Positions 3,456 to 15,752 of a stretch of 35,628 nt of DNA are shown here, piece by piece. The notes below the pieces were generated by a model. The model did no database searches and was not told where the DNA came from. It worked only from the letters and a program-made list of their open reading frames with translations. The DNA is from a virus. The translations under genes and the position numbers were made by a program. The stretch lies in the IMG/VR virus record IMGVR_UViG_3300035192_000045, positions 1 to 35,628 of that record. One strand, 5' to 3'. How positions within the stretch are numbered: the stretch's first letter is position 1; every line of letters begins with the position of its first letter.

Positions 3456-3659
3456 ATGTGTATGCCCCTGATTGACTGGTTTTTGTATTCCGCAGCGTTA
3501 TTCCTCGCCGCCTTCTCCCTCCCTATCGGCTGGCGCTGGCTGCGGCACATCCCACTTAAGCGCGGACTCGGAATGTGGTGCTTTATTACCGCCATATTCG
3601 CGTTCGCCTTGACAATCGCAATCGGACTCCCGCCCTTGTTGCGGGAACTATGGAGGTAA
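3456..3659 (+). CDS. Two-span small membrane protein, 67 aa
   Basis: ATG 3456 has GGAG at 3447-3450 and follows the previous TAA (3452-3454) at once. Two hydrophobic segments (about 7-25 and 38-58) are separated by a basic RWLRHIPLKRG loop. This gives three adjacent small membrane-protein genes (3033-3659), probably cotranscribed. Function unknown. Confidence 0.55.
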   Translation: MCMPLIDWFLYSAALFLAAFSLPIGWRWLRHIPLKRGLGMWCFITAIFAFALTIAIGLPPLLRELWR

Positions 3660-3662
3660 GAA

Positions 3663-3905
3663 ATGGCTACAATCCACGTCTGCGACTGTTGCCGGAACGG
3701 ATTCAAATCCCCGCTCCGTCACAAGTTCGAAGAACCGCACGGAACCCTAATCGAAGTCTGCGACTCGTGCGCCGGCATCCACTACGAAGTCCTCAAAGTT
3801 CTCACGGAGGAATACAACGAGAAACTCGCGGAACTCCGACAGTGGCTCAAAGACGAGACCACTGCCCGCTTCCGCAAATATCAGAAGAAAGGAGAAAGAG
3901 AATGA
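3663..3905 (+). CDS. Zinc-knuckle protein with helical tail, 80 aa
   Basis: Starts at ATG 3663 after GGAGG. The N-terminus has CDCC (C7, C9, C10) and C33-x2-C36, a plausible single zinc site, followed by a long amphipathic helix from residue 40 to the end (EVLKVLTEEYNEKLAELRQ region). Its TGA overlaps the next ATG. From this gene onward codons end mostly in C, unlike the AT-rich genes before it. Confidence 0.7.
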   Translation: MATIHVCDCCRNGFKSPLRHKFEEPHGTLIEVCDSCAGIHYEVLKVLTEEYNEKLAELRQWLKDETTARFRKYQKKGERE

Positions 3906-4492
3906 CCCCCAATTTCATTTCGGAAATCACCTACGGAACCCTCTCGGGAGGAAGCAAAAACGGTCGTGTTATGTTTGAAATAACCTGTAATGGACAAGAA
4001 CCGGAGAACGCCACCGATGGGGTACTCGCCGAGGTCGTGGACCTGTGCCGCTCTTACCCCGGGGCGAACTGCCGCTCAGTCCACTTCCGAGGACCGTTCC
4101 CCATCGAAAACACCAACGCTGTCTACTCCCTTCTCGCTGGGTTCAAATCCATTGGCTTCTCAACCTACATCACTCTCGACGGGAAATACTACTACTCGTG
4201 GCTCGCGGAGAGGCTTGTCGACGCCATAATTGTGCATCTCGCCTCGCCCAAGTTCCTCGGCATGGCCTTCAATGAACTCATCTATGATATCGCTGACCCG
4301 GCCGTCGGGGAACCCAAAATGCCCGACACATACGACGGACGTCAATTGCTCTACCTAAACCCAACCGGCGACCTTGCCAAAAGCCCGACCAAAGTCTTCA
4401 ATTTCATCCACCAAGCCAAGCTTCGCTGGAACATCAACGCCAAAATAAGACCGATCAAGGAAAAACTTTATCCGCGAGAGGAGACCGAATGA
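3902..4492 (+). CDS. Hypothetical 196-aa protein, possible radical-SAM-like remnant
   Basis: ATG 3902 overlaps the upstream TGA. The frame is open further upstream but that would run through the whole zinc-knuckle gene. Residues 57-105 show a strand (VHFRGPFP), a helix (AVYSLLAGFKSIGF) and a strand (TYITLDG), then a VDAIIVHLASP strand. This order resembles the middle of QueE/NrdG-type radical SAM barrels (GGEP strand, helix, strand). No CxxxCxxC cluster motif is present, so activity as a radical SAM enzyme is not supported. The resemblance is weak and by eye. It is coupled to the polymerase gene by ATGA. Confidence 0.6.
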   Translation: MTPNFISEITYGTLSGGSKNGRVMFEITCNGQEPENATDGVLAEVVDLCRSYPGANCRSVHFRGPFPIENTNAVYSLLAGFKSIGFSTYITLDGKYYYSWLAERLVDAIIVHLASPKFLGMAFNELIYDIADPAVGEPKMPDTYDGRQLLYLNPTGDLAKSPTKVFNFIHQAKLRWNINAKIRPIKEKLYPREETE

Positions 4493-7062
4493 TCTTCCCC
4501 CGTACCAAGAGCGATTGCGCCTCGTGCCCGCTCCGTGATAGAAAGCGTGTCTGGGGGACCGGCCCCTCCAATCCACACCTTACTTTCATAGGTGAGGCTC
4601 CCGGCTACGACGAAGACCGCACCGGGACCCCGTTCGTAGGAGCGGCCGGACATTATCTTAACTGGGGCCTCACCTCGGCGGGAATCCTACGCCATCGATG
4701 CTGGATAACAAACATTATCGCTTGCCGCCCGCCTAATAATAACTTCAAATCCCCGGAGGCGGCAGAAGCCCTTACCTGTTGCCTCCCCGGCTTCGAACAA
4801 GAACTCGCCTTCCTCAAAGAGAGTGGTATCAGAGTAATCTGTAAACTGGGGGGTGCCGCTCTCGACCTTTTAAGCATCCCGGATACAATCACGAAGGCTC
4901 GCGGCAGCGTCTATCTCCATGATTCACTCCCCGTAATCCCCACCTTCCACCCCTCATATCTCAACCGTATGGTAAACGCTAAAGGTCCCGAGAAACCCAA
5001 ACCAATCTTTAAGTACGTGTGGGTGGCGGACCTAAAAAAGGCCAAGCGCGTGTCCGAGGAAGGTTGGCAACCGCCCGAAGAGAACTTCAACCTCTCCCCC
5101 ACGTTGTCCGAACTCGAAGACTACGTCTCCTTCCACACCTCCCACAAATCACTCATCGCCGTCGATATCGAAACAACCGGCCTCGACCCACTCACCCACG
5201 AGATAGTGGTAATCGGCCTCGCGCACGGCCCCACCTCCGCGATCTCCGTCCCCCTTCTTGCTCAACACGGGGTCGAATATTGGCCACGATCCCAGCAGAC
5301 TCATGTGCGATCTCTCCTCGATCACCTCTTCACCTCATGCCCTCTTGTCTTCCAAAACGCCCTCTTCGATGTCCCATACCTTCAAGCGAAAAACTATAGC
5401 ATCGAATGGAAAAACGTCGCCCACGATACCATGCTCCTTCATCATGCCATCTCTCCCGAACTCCCCCACTCACTCGGTTTCATCGTTTCCCTCTACGGCG
5501 CAACCCCCTACTGGAAGGAAAATTTCCTCTCCCGCAACGGCTCGATCCTTGATCTCGAAAATGACGCCCTCCGTACCTACAACCTCCGTGACTGCGTCAC
5601 CCTCCATCAAGTCCTCCCCGGCCTCTGCGCTGACCTCTCTGAGACCGGGACCAGCTCTATCTACCTCTCGGAATCCCTCCCCCTTCTCGCCCCCGTCGCC
5701 GCCATGATGAAGAACGGCATCCAACTCGATAAGAAAAAACTCGCCTCCTACGCCGCCAAACTGTCCCGAGACAAGGCCGCCCTGGAGAAGGAGTTGAGAG
5801 CCGTCGCTTCCCTCCCTCCGGCCTTCAACCTCGATTCCGATGATCACCTCCGCTATTTCCTATACGGAATCCTCTCCAACAAACTAAAAAACGCGGAAGA
5901 GGAAATCGCCTCGAAAAAGCGCAAAGACACGAAAGTCTACAAGAAACTCGAAGGACTACTCGAAATTAAAACTAAAACCAAGCCCCTCGCCCCGCTTCCA
6001 TCCGCATACCGAGGCCGGAAGACGGACACCGGCAAAGCTAAAGTAGATGAACAAAGCCTCCTCTCGCTCCAACGCGCCTACCAGAACCGCCTCGCCACAA
6101 TCAACGCGCAAAAGAACCCGAAGACCCAAGAAGCCGCCTCAATACAAAAGCTCCTCCAGTGGTTATCCGCTTATCGCCGCTATTCCGAACTTGAGAAACT
6201 CCGTTCCACCTACTCCCATTTTCCAGCCGCTCCCGACGGCCGCGTCCACACCTCTATCCTCATCCACGGTACCGCCACAGGCCGTCTCTCCTCGGCCTCC
6301 CCGAATCTCCAAAACATCCCCAAAGAAAACCTCGAAATCCGCAAATGTTTCGTCGCTCCCGACGGTCGCATCCTCGTCTCCGCCGATTACGAAAACCTCG
6401 AAGCTCGGGTGCTTGCCTACGAAACCGGAGATGAACCCCTCATCAACGCCTTCGAACACGGACTCAACCTCCACGACGAGAACACTAAAATCCTCTTCGG
6501 GATCACCCCCACTCACCCCCAATGGAAGGTAGCCCGGCGCGCCGCCAAAATCTTCGCCTTCGGTAACAACTACGGCGGGGGAGACAACGGAATCTACGAA
6601 AAAATCCTCCTCGCTTGTCCGGAACTCGGTCTCACCTTCGCGCAATTTCGTGCGGTCAAGCAACGCTTTCTCGACGCTCACCCCGCTTACCACCGTTGGG
6701 CTGAGACCGCCCGCAAACGAGCCCGCGAGACTCGCCGGGTCTCCACCTTCTCGGGCCGAATCCGCATTCTTCACGGTCTCGACCGCGACAATGAAAAGAT
6801 CGGCTTGAACACCCCAATCCAGGGCGGAGCCGCCTCCATCATCAACTTGGCTCTGATCCGCATCCACTCCCGTATATCACCCCCAACCAAGCTCCTTCTC
6901 CAAATACACGATGAACTCCTGTTTGAGACCGTACCATCCTTCCTCCCGCGTCTGAAAACTATCATCAAAGAAGAAATGACCCGCGAAGTCGACTTCTACG
7001 GCCGCAAGGTCTCGTTCCCTATCAAGATCAAAACCGGCCCGTCATGGGGGGAGTTGAAATGA
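4489..7062 (+). CDS. Fusion: Fe-S uracil-DNA glycosylase + 3'-5' exonuclease + PolA DNA polymerase
   Basis: 857 aa in three domains. Residues 1-195: family 4/5-type uracil-DNA glycosylase with C10-x2-C13, GEAPGYDED followed by GTPFVGAAG, ITNIIACRPP (C79), C97/C98 and HPSYLNR (H154); the four-Cys Fe-S site looks complete. Residues about 220-390: DnaQ-like proofreading domain with D226-x-E228, D294 and Y364-x3-D368. Residues about 395-857: family A polymerase with TGRLS (597-601), motif A DYENLE (D633), the O-helix R683, K687, F691, Y695, and motif C HDE (D808). All catalytic residues seem present. This is the phage replicase. The start overlaps the upstream TGA. No 5'-nuclease domain is present. 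Confidence 0.95.
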   Translation: MIFPRTKSDCASCPLRDRKRVWGTGPSNPHLTFIGEAPGYDEDRTGTPFVGAAGHYLNWGLTSAGILRHRCWITNIIACRPPNNNFKSPEAAEALTCCLPGFEQELAFLKESGIRVICKLGGAALDLLSIPDTITKARGSVYLHDSLPVIPTFHPSYLNRMVNAKGPEKPKPIFKYVWVADLKKAKRVSEEGWQPPEENFNLSPTLSELEDYVSFHTSHKSLIAVDIETTGLDPLTHEIVVIGLAHGPTSAISVPLLAQHGVEYWPRSQQTHVRSLLDHLFTSCPLVFQNALFDVPYLQAKNYSIEWKNVAHDTMLLHHAISPELPHSLGFIVSLYGATPYWKENFLSRNGSILDLENDALRTYNLRDCVTLHQVLPGLCADLSETGTSSIYLSESLPLLAPVAAMMKNGIQLDKKKLASYAAKLSRDKAALEKELRAVASLPPAFNLDSDDHLRYFLYGILSNKLKNAEEEIASKKRKDTKVYKKLEGLLEIKTKTKPLAPLPSAYRGRKTDTGKAKVDEQSLLSLQRAYQNRLATINAQKNPKTQEAASIQKLLQWLSAYRRYSELEKLRSTYSHFPAAPDGRVHTSILIHGTATGRLSSASPNLQNIPKENLEIRKCFVAPDGRILVSADYENLEARVLAYETGDEPLINAFEHGLNLHDENTKILFGITPTHPQWKVARRAAKIFAFGNNYGGGDNGIYEKILLACPELGLTFAQFRAVKQRFLDAHPAYHRWAETARKRARETRRVSTFSGRIRILHGLDRDNEKIGLNTPIQGGAASIINLALIRIHSRISPPTKLLLQIHDELLFETVPSFLPRLKTIIKEEMTREVDFYGRKVSFPIKIKTGPSWGELK

Positions 7063-7361
7063 CCCTACATTGCACATCTTGTGGAAGATTTATAAGACGA
7101 CCTCCATATTGGGAACAAGAGAGGTTTTGCCCGCGCTGCAAAAAAATCATCAAGACGCAACGGAAAAACTGCAAACATCGTTGGAAAGTACATAGCGATT
7201 GTGAGATCGGCTACGCGAGATGTATTCATTGCGGATTAGAAGACTTCGTCCTCCTCGATTTATTGAATATTGTAATTGACCACGCTTACGACGAGGGATG
7301 GCTTAAGGAAGAGAAGACGAGGGAACACAAACGGCTACGCAAAAAAAGAGGTAACCATTGA
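7059..7361 (+). CDS. Double zinc-ribbon protein, 100 aa
   Basis: ATG 7059 overlaps the polymerase stop (ATGA); an in-frame ATG 15 bases upstream is less likely. C5-x2-C8 pairs with C24-x2-C27, and C38, H40, C48, C55 and C58 could form a second site. The C-terminus is basic (KRLRKKRGNH). Position between polymerase and ATPase suggests a replication accessory or nucleic-acid binding role, which is inference. Its TGA overlaps the next ATG. Confidence 0.7.
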   Translation: MTLHCTSCGRFIRRPPYWEQERFCPRCKKIIKTQRKNCKHRWKVHSDCEIGYARCIHCGLEDFVLLDLLNIVIDHAYDEGWLKEEKTREHKRLRKKRGNH

Positions 7362-8677
7362 CCCCCACTCCGTTCGACGACTCACGCCTCACCGACAAGT
7401 TTTGGACCCCGGAACCTTGGGACTCCAACATCCCTTCTCCCGGTTTCATCTCCGACTTCGTCCTCGCCTTCCGGGGAATAGAGGCTTGCACCAAGTATCA
7501 AGTCTGGGCCGTCCTTCACGCCATCTCCGCTCTTCTCAAGCGTGATACATGGCTCGAATGGGGACCACTCGGACGCTTCTACTTAAACCTCTACGTGTTC
7601 CTCGTCGGTCCCCCGTCCACCAAGAAATCATCCGTCGTTCTCCGCGCCGAGGAAATCCTCGAAGCCGTCCCGAAACACCTCTACGACGAAATCGAAGTCA
7701 TACGCAAAACTCCCAACCTCCTTCACTCAAAAGCCACTCCCGAAGCCCTTATGAAGTTTCTCGCCCCCTCCAAGCGCCGCAAAAACGGCCAAGACATCGA
7801 TCTCGGTTCCAACGGTACCATCGCCGCCTCGGAACTCGCCACTTTCCTCGGAAAACAGCAATACAACACCGGCCTCATCGAAATCCTCACCAACCTCTAC
7901 GACTGTAAACCCTCCGATGACGTAATGACTCTAAGCCGAGGCAAAGAAGTTCTCCGTGATATCTACGTCACCTTCATAGGATGCTCCACCCCCTCCGGTC
8001 TATCCGAATCCATCCCGGAACAAGCCTTCGGTGACGGGTTCCTCTCCCGCGTTATCCTCGTTTACCAAGAGCATCGCACCCGCAAATTCCCCGTACCGCG
8101 CCCGGTCACCGGAGGCCCCACCCCCACCGAACTCGCCCAGAGACTCGCTTGGATAGCCCACAACGCCCAAGGCCCGTACCTTCTCTCCCAAGAAACCATC
8201 AACGCTTACATCAATTGGTACGACACCTTCTGGGAAGCCGAAGTCTCCAACCCCGACATAAACCAACGCGGCATGTCACGCTATGACATCCATCTCCTCA
8301 AACTCGCCACCCTCATTCGTATCCAACGCTATGAACCCGGCAACGTCGTCGAACTGCAAGACTTCGACGACGCCCAACGTCTTCTCAAAGCCACCGTTCG
8401 CGAAGGATTCAAAGCCACGAAGGAAGTCGGCACCACTAAGGAAGACCGCATCACCCAACAAGTCATGGATTACATCCGGCGTAAAGGCGAAACAACCCGC
8501 CGCACCCTCCTCACGCGCAACTCTGGTCGCGGCTTCAAATCGGACCTCGTATCCGCCGCCGTCCGCGAACTCTACCAACGCGGTGAAGTCGTTATCCTCA
8601 AAAACGGTAACCAGCAAACATACCCCACCACATCGGGAGACGAAATATACAAATGGATTGGAGGAACCGAAGAATGA
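7358..8677 (+). CDS. DUF3987-like ATPase-related protein with degenerate P-loop
   Basis: 439 aa. Residues 78-91 hold FLVGPPSTKKSS, the position of a Walker A loop, but the Gly before the Lys is replaced by Lys (G84-PPSTK-K90-S91). AASELATFL (about 150) and YVTFIGCSTP (about 205) match the later strands of RecA-like DUF3987 proteins, which occur in mobile elements and phages near primases. Residues 360-430 look like a winged helix (ITQQVMDYIRRKGETTRRTLL). A helicase or loader role is plausible because no other helicase is visible here, but ATP use is uncertain. Coupled at both ends. Confidence 0.75.
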   Translation: MTPTPFDDSRLTDKFWTPEPWDSNIPSPGFISDFVLAFRGIEACTKYQVWAVLHAISALLKRDTWLEWGPLGRFYLNLYVFLVGPPSTKKSSVVLRAEEILEAVPKHLYDEIEVIRKTPNLLHSKATPEALMKFLAPSKRRKNGQDIDLGSNGTIAASELATFLGKQQYNTGLIEILTNLYDCKPSDDVMTLSRGKEVLRDIYVTFIGCSTPSGLSESIPEQAFGDGFLSRVILVYQEHRTRKFPVPRPVTGGPTPTELAQRLAWIAHNAQGPYLLSQETINAYINWYDTFWEAEVSNPDINQRGMSRYDIHLLKLATLIRIQRYEPGNVVELQDFDDAQRLLKATVREGFKATKEVGTTKEDRITQQVMDYIRRKGETTRRTLLTRNSGRGFKSDLVSAAVRELYQRGEVVILKNGNQQTYPTTSGDEIYKWIGGTEE

Positions 8678-8748: not shown

Positions 8749-9290
8749 CCGAAAAAGGCATCTATTCCGAGAAGCAACTCCTTTCCCTCTGGGAAAAGCA
8801 CAAGAAAATCCTTCCCGTCTCCCAAGCCCTCGGAGTGAATCGCAAAACAGTCCGCAGGCATTTACTTCGCCTCGGGATCACCTCAATCCGTCCCCCAGGA
8901 AGGCCTAAAGGTCTCCCGGGAAGACACCACAGCTCACTTATCAAATGGGTCAAAGAACACCCAACCACTCCTCTGCCACGGTCTCCTGAGAAAATCGTCG
9001 CCCTGACAGGATGCTCCATCCACGCCGTCCTCGCTTACTTAAAGCGACGCCGCGAGAACTTCCGTAAAGAACTCGCCTCCTTGCCCGATCTCCGCCAAAC
9101 ACCCCTCAAACTAAAAACCCCGTCCGGAGTCGGTATCCCCTTACGCGTTGTAGACTCCTACAACTACGTCATTGACGACTGGACGCAGAAAGCCAAACTC
9201 GTCATTCAACTCAGAGGCGGGAAGAAACTATCATTCAAGATCAAATCGTTGAAGGATTTCAAGAAGGCTATTGCTGATTCTTATCAATAG
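8730..9290 (+). CDS. HTH DNA-binding protein with AT-hook-like motif
   Basis: 186 aa, start ATG 8730 with GGAG at about 8717-8721. Residues 14-50 form a homeodomain-like helix-turn-helix (LPVSQALGVNRKTVRRHLLRLG), typical of the HTH part of transposases and phage regulators. PPGRPKG (about 55-61) resembles an AT hook. A second helical, possibly HTH-like segment (SPEKIVALTGCSIHAVLAYLKRR) follows, then a beta-rich C-terminus. Likely a transcription regulator or DNA-binding replication factor. It is the last + strand gene and its 3' end overlaps the convergent 1498-aa gene by 23 bases. Confidence 0.75.
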   Translation: MPPKRLTEKGIYSEKQLLSLWEKHKKILPVSQALGVNRKTVRRHLLRLGITSIRPPGRPKGLPGRHHSSLIKWVKEHPTTPLPRSPEKIVALTGCSIHAVLAYLKRRRENFRKELASLPDLRQTPLKLKTPSGVGIPLRVVDSYNYVIDDWTQKAKLVIQLRGGKKLSFKIKSLKDFKKAIADSYQ

Positions 9291-12200
9291 GAACCGAAGT
9301 CCAAGAGAGAAATGCCTTATGAAGATCGCCCGCGTTCGCATACTCCAATCCACGCACAATTGACCGGAACTGGTACGAACCGGGCACCACACTCGTAAGC
9401 AAAGTGGAGTTCATCAGCTTCCCGATGTCGATCTGAGGTTGCCCATTCTTCGTAGTATACCCGAAGAGCCGCGCCCTGATCTGCGGCGCGTCCGGGCTGT
9501 TAGAAAACGCTTCCATGAAATCATTCAGCAAGTGGTAATACGGACCACCCGAGAAAGTCAACGGCCCGGGGAAGTAATCCTCCGTCCGCATCCCGATATA
9601 GGAAGCCGCCGCCGAAAACGCTAACCCGGTTCCCACCCAACGCGACACGAAAGCCGCCTTCTGGCCCAAGGTCCGCGCCCGCATGAACCCATTTCTAATG
9701 TTGGCCACGAAATAAGTGGGATAAGTCCCGAACTGTCCGAACACCTTTCCCATCGTTCCCTTGGCCCAAACCGGCATCAATCCGGCTTTGTAGTCGAATT
9801 GAGTCTCACGAACCATCTGCACCGCGAACAACTCTCTCGCCAATTCCGGTTTCCCCTCAAGCATATGCTGCCTACAACGCGCCTGAAGATCATCCGCCAA
9901 GTTCCACACCCCCGAATCCCGCTTAAGAAACCGATCCAGATCAATCGCTCCGGCGTTGTACCGCTTCAAAGCATCATCGAACCGCAACCGCGAGGCCATG
10001 TAAGAGACCGACCGGTTCCATGTATCCGAGGTCTTGATCCAACGTAATGTCGCTTGCGACGTTTTCTCCAACTTGCCCCCGCGTCCGAATATCTCACCGG
10101 ACTTGTAGAAGGGCAGATCGGGAGGTATTATTCCCGATTTCCGAATAAGGGCCGCCACCTCTCCGGTTTTATCTTTCGCTAATAAGTCCATCGCGTCCGC
10201 TACCCAACTCTGCCCGATACGGGTACCGGTAGTAAGAAACGGTTGGGTAAGGTTCCTAAGCGCAGTTCCGGGCCTAAACCCCAGCCCGGACATGTACCCT
10301 AACTGCAACACGGCGTCCACCACACTACTCGGATTGTGCTTCACACCGATCCCCTTAAACAACCTATGCGAGAAGGTCCGCACCAATTCCTCGTTTAAGT
10401 CGCCGGGAATCCCGGCGAACTCCTGCATGTAAATCTTAAATCTCGTCCGTAGCGCGGGATCATACTGCCCTGAGTTCGCCTTGAACCACTTGTCTACATC
10501 GTCGAGAATGGGGCCGAGGAACCGTTCCCTTTGGCCCGCCGCGATATATTTCCGCAACTGAATCAAGGGATCGTCCTCAAGGGCGAAGTCAACAATATCC
10601 GAAACCCGAGAATGCCTGAAGAAAGCATCCACATCGGTTGGAAGTCGGTCCGTCTTAAAGGCGTCTTTAAGGAAGTCCACCGTGTCGGAGTCGAAATATT
10701 TCCCCATCTCGGCCGTCTTCCGGTACAACTTAATCTTCGGGAGATATTCCGTGAGGAACTTGTCCGCGTTAATATCATAAAGCTGGAACAACTGATTATA
10801 CATCGTCCGTACGTTTTTGGCGGCGTCGATGTGTTCTGCCGTCAGGCCCAACCCCTCGGCGATTTCCCTGATCCCCGGATCGTCGAGATTGTTCCTCAAC
10901 AATTCCCCGAACCTGATCCTCTCCGCTTTCTTCATCGTCTTCCCGTCGATCTTGAACGCCGTCGAGGCGATCTTGTCGGCGTCCGCAAACGTCCCCATCA
11001 CGAACCCTCTTCCCGCCTCAATCCTCCTCATAGACTTGAGTATGTATTCCGGGGCACCTTGCTTGACCGCGTTCTCGAAGGAAATCTCGGTTGGCCATAA
11101 GAAGTTCTTCAGATTCCACCCGGCCGACATTTCCGCCACCTCGCCCGGCTCCAACTTCCACTTCGTATCGCCCGTAGAAAGGTCCGGAACCCTCCTCATA
11201 TCGCGGAACCATGCCTCCTCGATACCAGTCAACTCGGGCATGTATTCGGCCAGAGGAGCCTCTCTGATGATACCCATGAGTTCCTTCTTACTCCGCGCCG
11301 TCAAAACCCGATCCTTATTATACACCCACCACTGATTATCCCGCACCTCGATGTTGTAGCCTTTACGTTCAGCCGCTTTCCGCACGATGTCGTAATCGTT
11401 CGCTCCGCGCTTCAAGAATTTCTTTGCCGCCTCCAAGCTCTTGAACTCCCGCGAGAACCCCAACTCAGGCACGTCCACTGTGTACACGCTCGTCTCCCGG
11501 TCGAATCTCACCCTGTTCCCAAGCCGGGCCTGCTTTGCTTGCCGTGTGGAATACTTGGAATACTTGTCGAGTTCCTCCATCAAAGTCTCGGCGGTCCCGA
11601 AGGCGATCTTATTCTGCTGCACCACTCCCCCAGTCCCGGTGAAATCCTTGTCCACCAAGAAGGTGAATTCGGGCGCGTACTCAGCCGGAATCTTAGGAGT
11701 AAGCTCGGGGTTATTCCGTAAAAGCTCGTCGATGGACTCCGCCTGCGCCACTTTAACCCCGCCCTTGTATACAAGGTACCCACGATTTGTCTTTTGAAGA
11801 TCGAGTCCTTGGTAGGTTGCGAGATATGTCTTCACCAGCTTGTCGTCGATGATTTTGTTCTTGAGAATGAAGTTTCCAACATCCTCGATAGAGTCAAACA
11901 TTTGCGCCGCCTGGCCCGGAAACGCCACCCGCAATTTCCCCCCGGCAACCTGTTCAATATTCGCCCCGAAATCATTCAGAGCCGTATCGACAATCCAAGA
12001 AGGAGTATAGTGCACCTGGGACTTCTTAAGCATCTCTTGATAAGCTTGCTGGATTTCGGGACCGCCCGCCCCCACCCCAGGATGCTTGGTCATCTTCCCC
12101 AAGTCACGCGACAGCTTGGCAATGGCATCTACCTCGTCGAGAGGGTTTGAGATTGCGGCCGGGACCTCTGATATTGACCTATTCCCGACTTGCACCACCA

Positions 12201-13764
12201 ACTTGTCTCCGCTTGACAGCACCCGCACCGTTTCCCGGTCGATGTCTGTTCCTCGGTAGAATTCCTTGGCAAACATCTCGACGTTTTTTCGGTTGAACTT
12301 GCCGCCGACCGGGGCCACCGTAGCGGATAGCAGTTTCGCCTTTTCTTTGGCGTTGTCGGGGAGGTATTGTTTGACGGTCTCGGAGATTTGAAGCTTTCGC
12401 GAACCGACGGCCATCATTCCGGCATCTCGCGTCTTGGTCTTAGGGAGCTGTAGCGCTCTCTCATCGAGAAAGGCTTTCGCGGAGTCGTAGTCTTTCAGGT
12501 GCTTCACCAACTTCCCCGTAAGGGGATCGGTAGCGTTCCACGCCCCGCTTGCGGCTTTCTTCATCGCAACGGCGTTATCCGGTCCGAGAGCCATTCCGTA
12601 AGTGCGTAGCAGATCATCAGGATCCGGTTTCCCGGCGAACCTCAACACTCTTCCGTGGCTCTCAGCGATATTGAACATGGTGGTAAGTTGCTCATCGCCG
12701 AACTTTTCAATGAAAGCCCTTGAATACCCGCCTCCGGATACGGCATCTACAAAAGCGTTGTTGAATGAAGCCCGGAGGTTTTGAAGAGGTTTCCCGGCGG
12801 AGGCCTCGCTCACAAGGGAAATCTCCTTCGGTGGTCCCTTAAAGGTCCATTTAAGTGCTTGGCCCCCGCGCTTAAGCCCTCCCAGTACGAAAAAGCAGGC
12901 GAGGTCTCCTAGGGCGTATTCCCCGAAATAGCTCGCGCTCTTGAAAGCTATCTCCTGAAAGCTCTTATTCTCCCACCCGCGATTCATGATGTCTTTCAGG
13001 TCTTCGCGAAGAACCCCAACCACCCCGCCGGCGGCCGCGTGAACCCCGCTCCGCGCCGCCAAGTATCCCCAACGCGGAAGTTTGGCGATCTTCGGAATCT
13101 TCATGAGGAGTTTCGCTACTCCCGCCGGCTTCGCCATCGTTCCTACAAGGCCTGTGTACCCAATCGACGTCTCTAGCCCGAACCCCGATATCATCCCGGC
13201 TGTCTCCAACACACTCCCGAGGGAAGCTTGCTTCATATCTTTGTTTTGGGTGTAGCGTAACCAATCGAGGAACTTTTCTTGGTTCCTCCCGATAGCCTCC
13301 GTCTGCGTGGCTCGTTGCAAGAGTCCGTTGAAAGCCTTAATTAGCCCCGTCCCCTCGTAGAACCCGGCCCCGAACCGCGACGCTTGCCCCAGAAGCTTGG
13401 TTACATCTTTGATTATCGCCCCGGCGCGGGTAGGAGATTCCCGCGTCAGCATAAGCTTCTCGAAATGCTCTTGCATCCCGACCGCTCCTTGTTTGTCGAT
13501 TTTTTCCTTGAGGAGGTTCATCGCCCCGAAGTCGGGCGTGAGGCCTTTTATCCCAAACAATTCCGGTGACGGTTCAAAGCGTGGGGCCGCGAAAATAAGC
13601 TTGTCGAAGAGGAGTTGCTTCTGCTCAGGGGGGAGTTGGGCGAACTTCGGATCAAGCTGAAGTTGCTTCTTCAGCACCTCCGCCCGGAGGCGAATCTGTT
13701 CGTCGTATGGAAGTTTGGCAAACCTGGGATCATTTTCAAGTTTCTGATAATAGTTTCCATTCAA
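9268..13764 (-). CDS. Giant internal virion / DNA-ejection-type protein, 1498 aa
   Basis: The longest gene and last of the late operon. The N-terminus has two copies of a DP[RK]FA[KQ]LP motif (residues 12-19 and 38-45), common in podovirus ejection proteins. Gly/Ala-rich hydrophobic stretches lie at about 188-255. Residues about 588-840 hold at least four related modules of 45-50 residues (see findings). The C-terminal 250 residues are helical with FGTYPTYFVANIRNG near 1360 and a conserved-looking SYIGM segment. Size and position match the large ejected proteins of P22- and T7-like phages, but no lytic transglycosylase motif is evident. Start ATG 13764 overlaps the previous stop. Confidence 0.8.
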   Translation of the reverse strand: MNGNYYQKLENDPRFAKLPYDEQIRLRAEVLKKQLQLDPKFAQLPPEQKQLLFDKLIFAAPRFEPSPELFGIKGLTPDFGAMNLLKEKIDKQGAVGMQEHFEKLMLTRESPTRAGAIIKDVTKLLGQASRFGAGFYEGTGLIKAFNGLLQRATQTEAIGRNQEKFLDWLRYTQNKDMKQASLGSVLETAGMISGFGLETSIGYTGLVGTMAKPAGVAKLLMKIPKIAKLPRWGYLAARSGVHAAAGGVVGVLREDLKDIMNRGWENKSFQEIAFKSASYFGEYALGDLACFFVLGGLKRGGQALKWTFKGPPKEISLVSEASAGKPLQNLRASFNNAFVDAVSGGGYSRAFIEKFGDEQLTTMFNIAESHGRVLRFAGKPDPDDLLRTYGMALGPDNAVAMKKAASGAWNATDPLTGKLVKHLKDYDSAKAFLDERALQLPKTKTRDAGMMAVGSRKLQISETVKQYLPDNAKEKAKLLSATVAPVGGKFNRKNVEMFAKEFYRGTDIDRETVRVLSSGDKLVVQVGNRSISEVPAAISNPLDEVDAIAKLSRDLGKMTKHPGVGAGGPEIQQAYQEMLKKSQVHYTPSWIVDTALNDFGANIEQVAGGKLRVAFPGQAAQMFDSIEDVGNFILKNKIIDDKLVKTYLATYQGLDLQKTNRGYLVYKGGVKVAQAESIDELLRNNPELTPKIPAEYAPEFTFLVDKDFTGTGGVVQQNKIAFGTAETLMEELDKYSKYSTRQAKQARLGNRVRFDRETSVYTVDVPELGFSREFKSLEAAKKFLKRGANDYDIVRKAAERKGYNIEVRDNQWWVYNKDRVLTARSKKELMGIIREAPLAEYMPELTGIEEAWFRDMRRVPDLSTGDTKWKLEPGEVAEMSAGWNLKNFLWPTEISFENAVKQGAPEYILKSMRRIEAGRGFVMGTFADADKIASTAFKIDGKTMKKAERIRFGELLRNNLDDPGIREIAEGLGLTAEHIDAAKNVRTMYNQLFQLYDINADKFLTEYLPKIKLYRKTAEMGKYFDSDTVDFLKDAFKTDRLPTDVDAFFRHSRVSDIVDFALEDDPLIQLRKYIAAGQRERFLGPILDDVDKWFKANSGQYDPALRTRFKIYMQEFAGIPGDLNEELVRTFSHRLFKGIGVKHNPSSVVDAVLQLGYMSGLGFRPGTALRNLTQPFLTTGTRIGQSWVADAMDLLAKDKTGEVAALIRKSGIIPPDLPFYKSGEIFGRGGKLEKTSQATLRWIKTSDTWNRSVSYMASRLRFDDALKRYNAGAIDLDRFLKRDSGVWNLADDLQARCRQHMLEGKPELARELFAVQMVRETQFDYKAGLMPVWAKGTMGKVFGQFGTYPTYFVANIRNGFMRARTLGQKAAFVSRWVGTGLAFSAAASYIGMRTEDYFPGPLTFSGGPYYHLLNDFMEAFSNSPDAPQIRARLFGYTTKNGQPQIDIGKLMNSTLLTSVVPGSYQFRSIVRGLEYANAGDLHKAFLSWTSVPIDKNQQ

Positions 13765-15752
13765 GGAGATTCTCCCTCGATGAGTTCGTTGAGAAGCAAC
13801 GCCCCCTCACGACTGATTCCGGTCTTGGTTTCCTCGCCTCCCGCTTCAGCATAGCCCTTCCGCCTTGCCTCCTCAGGGGTGAGATAAGCTTTCACCTTAC
13901 TTGGAGTGTGGAGTCCTTGAATCGGGAGCAGATTCCCAATCTGCTGAAAAATACCCAACTCCATTTGCTTCTCATACGGCTTGATGAGTTGCTTCGCTTG
14001 CGCGTAGGTGTATCCTTCAGCCATGAGACTACTTGTGAGGTAATCCTTATAGACCGTTTGGTATCCTGGGTCTTGCAACCACTGGTCGTCGTTCCACTGC
14101 GCCTTCCCCGGGTCAGCTTTAATCAGCGAATTTTTGTAGTCCGTGGCGCGTTTCTGGAAGTCTCCCATAACCTTCTGCATACTTATCGCTTGACCACGTG
14201 AGGCTAATTCCACATCCACCATCTTTTTCTGTGCGTCGATTTGCAGTTCCCGTGCTTTCAGCGCAAGCTCCCGCTCTTTGAACACAACCCCAGCACGCTT
14301 GGCCTCGATGTCGGCTTGAATACGGGCCGCTTCCAAGGCAAGCTTCTGCTTCTCAAGATAGTCCTTATCAGCGGTTTGCATCTGCCCGAGGAGAGCGTCG
14401 TACCCGCCGAAGTTTCCCGCTACGCGATCCAAGTGTTTTTTCACCCTTGCGTAGCCTTCGGGAGTATTGATAACTTTCGCTAAGTGGCCTATTCTCCCGA
14501 GGACCTGATCTCCCTCCGCTTTTATCTCCTCAGGGGTCATAAATCTCCTTCCGGAAGAATTCCGTTGGAGAGTATTCAGCGCCCCGCTTGCGGCCCGTTC
14601 CGCTACTTCCGTCCGCTTAACCGTAGTGGTATTCGCCCCGTCCATCTGAGCGACTTGGCTTATAGTGAGATCGACTGGTTCAGCTATGAGGAGTCTTACT
14701 CCGCTCTCCTGAGTGAACGCGTCCCCGTTCTCGAAGGCTTTACGGGCGGCGTTCACCCCTCCGTACCGTTGAGTAAGCTGTTCCTTATTCATGTTCCATA
14801 CGGACTCTTTGAACTGCTTGTCGCTCATGTCGGGATAAATCTGGTTCTTCAGCTGGGAGAAAACTTCTTTCCGATTGACGGCGTTCTTCATATCTGCCTT
14901 GGGACGAAATACCCCATTCTCCACGGAAGCAAGCGGAACATTCTCCCGCTCAACCGTCCGGGTCTGAGTGCGCATTCCCGCGTCTTCTTTCCGCATTTGC
15001 TGGTACTGTGGAGGAGTGGGTCCGATTCCCTTGGTCCCCGCGAAAAATCCCGTCACCTCCTCCGGCGCGGCCTCGTTCGTCTGATAGAACTTGTATGCTT
15101 GCCACGCTGGGTTCCGCATCATCTCATCCGCAGAGGCATTCGGATTATATTCCTCCGGCGATTGTTGGATGGCTTGGTAGTATTTCGTTCCCCAGGCTCC
15201 TGGCTCAAGGGGGTATTTCGCTCCCTCGGAAACATCCTTCATGAGCAGCTTGCGAAATTCCGGGTATGACATCTTCCCGCCAGTTTGTGTGGTAACCTCT
15301 TCCGCCGTCTTCCCCGATACCTCCGCTTGCGTAGGTTGCACGGGAGGCGGTTGCCTAACTGGAGGCTGGGTCCGGTCCTCCATAGGACGCGGGGCGGTGG
15401 TGGTAAGCTGTATCGCCTCCCCGGCTGCGATCCTCGCCTGCAACGCTGGGTCCTGCAACGCTGTCGACCACTGATTGTAGATGTTTTCGACTTCTTGCGA
15501 ATCAGGTCGAAGATTGTACTGCAACCCAATAAGGCGCTTGACATCCTTCGCGCCGCTCTTAATGTAATCAGGGTACGCTTTCAACTTCTCAAGGAGAAGC
15601 TCCTTACTCAGTCTCGCTTGTTCCTCTCTCTGCGCCTTAAGCTGATTGCTTAAGGTAAGCATCTGCGTGCTGACTTGCGCCCCGGCCGCTATGTAATCGA
15701 GAGGATCACGTTTCGCCGGACCTCGTACCGCTTGCGGACTCGAAATAGGCAT
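13761..15752 (-). CDS. Coiled-coil internal virion protein, 663 aa
   Basis: Sits directly before the 1498-aa gene and overlaps it by four bases. Helical throughout, with coiled-coil stretches at about 30-60 (NQLKAQREEQARLSKELL) and 450-520 (KLALEAARIQADIEAKRAG). A Pro/Gln/Thr-rich linker lies at about 115-150. A second ejection-type protein, analogous in position to P22 gp20 or T7 gp15, is the best guess from context; I see no enzyme motif. Start ATG 15752 has GGAGG upstream. Confidence 0.75.
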   Translation of the reverse strand: MPISSPQAVRGPAKRDPLDYIAAGAQVSTQMLTLSNQLKAQREEQARLSKELLLEKLKAYPDYIKSGAKDVKRLIGLQYNLRPDSQEVENIYNQWSTALQDPALQARIAAGEAIQLTTTAPRPMEDRTQPPVRQPPPVQPTQAEVSGKTAEEVTTQTGGKMSYPEFRKLLMKDVSEGAKYPLEPGAWGTKYYQAIQQSPEEYNPNASADEMMRNPAWQAYKFYQTNEAAPEEVTGFFAGTKGIGPTPPQYQQMRKEDAGMRTQTRTVERENVPLASVENGVFRPKADMKNAVNRKEVFSQLKNQIYPDMSDKQFKESVWNMNKEQLTQRYGGVNAARKAFENGDAFTQESGVRLLIAEPVDLTISQVAQMDGANTTTVKRTEVAERAASGALNTLQRNSSGRRFMTPEEIKAEGDQVLGRIGHLAKVINTPEGYARVKKHLDRVAGNFGGYDALLGQMQTADKDYLEKQKLALEAARIQADIEAKRAGVVFKERELALKARELQIDAQKKMVDVELASRGQAISMQKVMGDFQKRATDYKNSLIKADPGKAQWNDDQWLQDPGYQTVYKDYLTSSLMAEGYTYAQAKQLIKPYEKQMELGIFQQIGNLLPIQGLHTPSKVKAYLTPEEARRKGYAEAGGEETKTGISREGALLLNELIEGESP

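Follow-up and report, generated by a model that had tools for sequence, protein, structure and literature searches.

A single gene joining a uracil-DNA glycosylase domain to a DNA polymerase

The window considered here, which is the whole analysed stretch of 35,628 nucleotides of the virus record IMGVR_UViG_3300035192_000045, contains on its plus strand a gene at 4489–7062 that encodes 857 amino acids in one open reading frame, with an ATG start and no internal stops. The start overlaps the stop of the preceding gene, and a Shine-Dalgarno-like GAGGAG stretch lies just 5' of it. From the N-terminus to the C-terminus, and all on the plus strand, the product combines a uracil-DNA glycosylase (UDG) domain of apparent family-4 type (residues 8–171; 4510–5001), a linking helix (residues 173–191; 5005–5061), a DnaQ-like 3'-5' exonuclease (residues 205–373; 5101–5607) and the palm and fingers of a family A polymerase (residues 526–855; 6064–7053). 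The first domain is recognised by PF03167, TIGR00758 and an alignment with the structure 1ui0. All three Pfam matches lie above their cut-offs: UDG (PF03167) at residues 23–171 with E=2.5e-25 and 89.6 bits against a cut-off of 24.3, DNA_pol_A_exo1 (PF01612) at 205–373 with E=1.9e-10 and 41.3 bits, and DNA_pol_A (PF00476) at 526–855 with E=2.7e-68 and 231.1 bits.

The residues expected of a proofreading family A polymerase are in place. The exonuclease carries a DEDDy set (D226/E228/D294/Y364/D368), and polymerase motifs A, B and C are present, with D633/E638 in motif A, R683/K687/F691/Y695 on the O helix and H807-D808 in motif C. Among 45 fused homologues the five exonuclease residues and D633/E638/K687/Y695/H807-D808 occupy invariant or near-invariant columns. 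A 5'-3' exonuclease (FEN) domain was not found in the 857-residue protein, which, as one polypeptide of UDG, 3'-5' exonuclease and PolA, belongs to the viral UDG-exonuclease-PolA fusions (phrog_17; SPO1/PaBG type).

An AlphaFold2 model built on a 45-sequence alignment agrees with this division (mean pLDDT 93.7, pTM 0.89). Its least certain stretch is a loop at about residues 161–170 (mean pLDDT 64), and the modelled helix, assigned by DSSP, runs from the UDG into the exonuclease. Foldseek matched the C-terminal part to Klenow fragments (1kfs, TM 0.84 by target length) and also retrieved full-length viral polymerases, including that of Achromobacter phage Motura, over about 920–1010 alignment columns. 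The earlier note had read the locus from its letters as a single 857-residue frame with an Fe-S-type UDG, an intact exonuclease and a PolA core, and both the reading frame and the Pfam matches bear this out. No stop or frameshift interrupts residues 195–220, where that note had allowed for one, and relatives on other contigs are equally continuous.

The virus and its relatives

Among the genes of the 35.6-kb record are those for a terminase, an SU10-type portal, the capsid and the tail. Three of its products find their best annotated match in vir526 (BK063670.1, assigned to Methanomicrobiales), with 41% identity for the polymerase, 35% for the terminase and 37% for the capsid. Judged solely by that assignment, the hosts are probably methane-producing archaea. 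The order polymerase, DUF3987/primase, a gene of about 190 residues and a long minus-strand gene is common to the window and vir526, and it is also mostly kept in the loci L013–L015 and in Mel-JY34. The DUF3987/primase-helicase-like neighbour, kept beside the fused polymerase in this clade, lies at 7358–8677 on the plus strand (phrog_14296, 9.3e-31; PF13148, 1.3e-12).

When the 857-residue protein alone served as query against viral contigs, no relatives were returned, and alignments were required to retrieve them; the gene is therefore divergent and, on these comparisons, a divergent member of the clade typified by vir526. No near DNA match of the window to known phages was found, nor were Rfam matches or tRNAs within it. 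An assembly or frameshift artefact was considered and is ruled out by the same unbroken frame on many independent contigs, among them relatives from different metagenomes whose polymerases are 96–100% identical to that of vir526 (L172–L175) or 36–39% identical to the 857-residue protein (L013–L015).

Several further features of the record deserve mention. The listed 305-residue frame at 3575–4492 probably starts later, as the frame of a small CxxC protein (3663–3905) overlaps its first third; an internal ATG overlapping the stop of the CxxC gene would give a protein of about 196 residues, resembling the 175-residue gene product that precedes the polymerase in vir526. On the minus strand, 9268–15752 holds very long genes (1498 and 663 residues) lacking a Pfam match, and the only annotated-phage match of the 1498-residue product is the vir526 gene at the equivalent place (22% identity over 30%). 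The record is probably incomplete, since its relatives span 44–50 kb (vir526 44,208 nucleotides; L013–L015 47–50 kb) against 35,628 here. Intein splicing/Hint matches occur inside the polymerase region of two close relatives (L016:6001-9435 and L017:3612-6698), and none occurs in the 857-residue gene.

Distribution and earlier descriptions of the fusion

The earlier note had called for a search for fused relatives and held that such domains are usually found on separate polypeptides. When a UDG-only alignment (A2) was used as query, many viral fusions were retrieved: 55 of 80 viral loci encode a UDG joined to PolA in one reading frame, a fraction that leans towards an upper value because the rows of A2 are themselves fused viral domains and favour fused matches. 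Cellular loci retrieved in the same way contained only unfused UDGs (0 of 80 fused), and a scan of cellular genome contigs for the full fusion found none. The contrast between viruses and cells thus remains large despite the bias of the query, and the separation of the domains holds for cells and fails for viruses. In some of the viral cases counted as unfused (L122, L124, L125, L134) a polymerase frame lies directly 3' of the UDG frame. Fused members are found in many phages of bacteria as well.

The novelty that had been suspected for this arrangement falls away with the literature. A UDG-PolA fusion was described for the SPO1/Shbh1-type DNA polymerase (PMC5135824), and in 2020 the order UDG, 3'-5' exonuclease, polymerase was described in PaBG gp205 and all 11 'Lupandier' phages, with a role in fidelity proposed for the fused UDG of these PaBG-like jumbo phages (PMC7412058). 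The 857-residue gene is best seen as adding a divergent, apparently catalytically complete member to a known viral architecture. In a tree of UDG domains it falls in a group of ten rows, all fused (SH-aLRT 99). Across the tree 17 changes of the fused label are needed, and well-supported branches force at least 6 of these, with gains and losses indistinguishable; a single origin of the fusion finds no support in these changes.

A family-4-type UDG with its active site in place

The best PDB match to the UDG part is UDGa of Thermus thermophilus (1ui0, E=3.4e-28). Residues C10, C13, C79 and C98 align with the Fe-S cysteines C13, C16, C84 and C100 of that enzyme, while C97 lies opposite residues that do not bind the cluster (Ile99 in the T. 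thermophilus protein, Ala in Tma), which identifies C98 as the cluster ligand. The set proposed in the earlier note, with C97 or C98 as its fourth member, is accordingly complete, and the choice settles on C98. Residues E36, F49, N75 and H154 align with E41, F54, N80 and H155 in the numbering of the 1ui0 alignment; we take their catalytic roles to be those generally known for family-4 UDGs. The family-4 motifs GE[AG]PG and HP[SA] and the Phe and Asn that contact uracil are retained (GEAPG at 35–39, F49, N75 and HPS at 154–156). The TIGR00758 score lies below the curated NCBIfam cut-off of 125.3 bits both for the isolated domain (E=1.2e-32, 113.0 bits) and for the whole protein (108.9 bits), and the label family-4-type is therefore preferred to family-4. 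Such a domain appears catalytically complete.

Identity with UdgX was examined and rejected: the KRRIH loop for covalent uracil capture is missing, and TIGR03914 scores 84.5 bits against a cut-off of 189.95. The names of UdgX entries in the PDB, 'Phage SPO1 DNA polymerase-related protein', reflect an old link between UDGs and polymerases. A weak match to the UDG part was also obtained with PDB chain 9qhs, a 'putative DNA-directed DNA polymerase I' of 1142 residues (3.1e-5).

Conservation and loss of the active site

How general is this apparent completeness? Among 106 distinct fused viral UDG domains, E, N and H are kept in 83, and 64 of these also keep all four cysteines, leaving 19 with an active site lacking the full cysteine set. 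In the remaining 23 at least one of E, N and H is gone, as in L015 (H to Q) from the window's own clade, and a fused UDG can therefore be retained when normal catalysis is lost. In the vir526 group dN/dS is 0.04–0.08 for the UDG part, 0.04–0.05 for the exonuclease and 0.02–0.04 for the polymerase, values which indicate that the UDG part is under purifying selection in close relatives.

These losses bring in the main rival to excision in cis, namely that the UDG domain mainly holds DNA, aiding processivity or guiding the template, and excises uracil only secondarily or not at all. The poxvirus UDG D4 is the analogue invoked for such a role. A processivity role has been put forward for polymerases of this kind (Kazlauskas & Venclovas 2011, as cited in PMC5135824), and fused domains survive without catalytic or Fe-S residues, for example in the SPO1-like phage phi18. 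Against this, no catalytic or cluster residue is missing from the 857-residue protein, although pure DNA binding would not require them, and E, N and H are retained in the majority of fused domains counted above. We regard a mainly DNA-holding domain as rather unlikely for this protein; among fused UDGs at large both roles may exist.

The altered domains are diverse. They include those of SPO1-like phi18, LysYB1, PMBT14, YenP744 and STP12; the loci L009, L010, L011, L012 and L005 show changes of E to D or of N to P, G or S. Thymidylate synthase-like genes lie near the fused polymerase in LysYB1, PMBT14 and YenP744, and YenP744 also has a pyrimidine hydroxymethylase synthase gene nearby. These genes suggest that base specificity has shifted in phages that modify thymine; this is a lead rather than a rule, as ctfzr933 has thymidylate synthase-like/pyrimidine-modification genes yet a canonical fused UDG. 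In another set (L039, L055, L057, L064, L066, L067, L071, L072, L079, L083, L085, L089, L090) the His of HPS is replaced by Asn and the Fe-S cysteines are incomplete; by its residues this group is a distinct subtype, either degenerate or repurposed.

What the fused domain may do

Excision of uracil in cis appears likeliest, given a complete and conserved set of residues in a domain carried by the replicase itself. We lean, by somewhat more than an even chance, towards a protein that serves as the replicase of a vir526-related tailed virus and whose fused UDG excises uracil in cis; removal of uracil from the template or from newly made strands, as the earlier note had suggested, would be the most plausible function. 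The domain would act at the replication fork while the polymerase works on viral DNA, removing uracil that stems from cytosine deamination or dUMP incorporation and so keeping the viral genome uracil-poor. Since the virus yielded no AP endonuclease match, processing of the resulting AP sites would fall to the AP endonuclease and repair enzymes of the host; among 38 fused-polymerase records the families PF01261 and PF03372 have no match. PF00692 dUTPase is present in 2 of these 38, a count that covers viruses with a fused UDG only and a single dUTPase family, to which the dimeric dUTPases do not belong.

Some points speak against excision in cis. If uracil were cut from single-stranded template before the polymerase arrived, blocking AP sites would result, a difficulty for the timing of excision and for the strand that is scanned; added to this are the fused UDGs that persist after loss of E, N or H and the TIGR00758 score below its cut-off. 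In another reading the domain is a uracil sensor, which would recognise uracil in the template and halt the polymerase but leave the base in place, as a PolA analogue of the uracil read-ahead of archaeal family B polymerases. In favour of a sensor are its position on a PolA, which has no family B uracil pocket, the close relative vir526 as an archaeal virus, and the ordered helix that the model places at the junction. We consider this improbable for a domain that retains its excision residues, lacks the UdgX-type loop for tight uracil capture and has fused counterparts in many bacterial phages.

A more speculative idea still, and one to which we give little credence, joins both thoughts: the archaeal viruses in this clade could use their fused UDG as a template-uracil checkpoint in PolA, with a pause coupled to excision or hand-off, as an independent counterpart of family B read-ahead, and where several thymine-modifying phages have lost catalytic residues, this module could have been kept with an altered base specificity. 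The earlier note had also raised an attack on host or rival DNA that contains uracil. Apart from general plausibility this has nothing in its favour and is highly improbable, as the domain is covalently tied to the virus's own replicase, the gene is placed in a replication module and nothing in the window points to a uracil-DNA genome or a UDG inhibitor.

The gene is one instance of a recurrent viral arrangement, absent from the sampled cells, in which uracil removal is physically tied to the replicase. Its 857-residue product, compact and to all appearance complete, comes from a clade of probable archaeal viruses and could help to test the coupling of base excision to DNA synthesis in one polypeptide. 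It also bears on why some lineages retain a fused UDG after losing UDG chemistry.

Comparison with known systems

The family-4 enzymes TthUDGa (1ui0) and TmUDG (1vk2) have the motifs, the four Fe-S cysteines and the active-site residues in common with the 857-residue protein. Both are free-standing, whereas the UDG described here is fused to PolA and is longer after C79 and after HPS. The polymerase of vir526 is a full-length UDG-exonuclease-PolA fusion that aligns from end to end; its sequence has diverged, and it is annotated as 'DNA polymerase' only, with its UDG part unmentioned. The SPO1/Shbh1-type polymerase, represented by phi18 (locus L005), likewise has an N-terminal UDG-superfamily domain followed by exonuclease and PolA, but the phi18 domain lacks the Fe-S cysteines and has Ser in place of N75, in contrast to the canonical domain found here. 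Identical domain order is seen in the PolA of PaBG gp205 and the 'Lupandier' phages, whose UDG was modelled on 1ui0 (PMC7412058); these are jumbo myoviruses of bacteria, whereas the virus described here is smaller and falls in a different clade.
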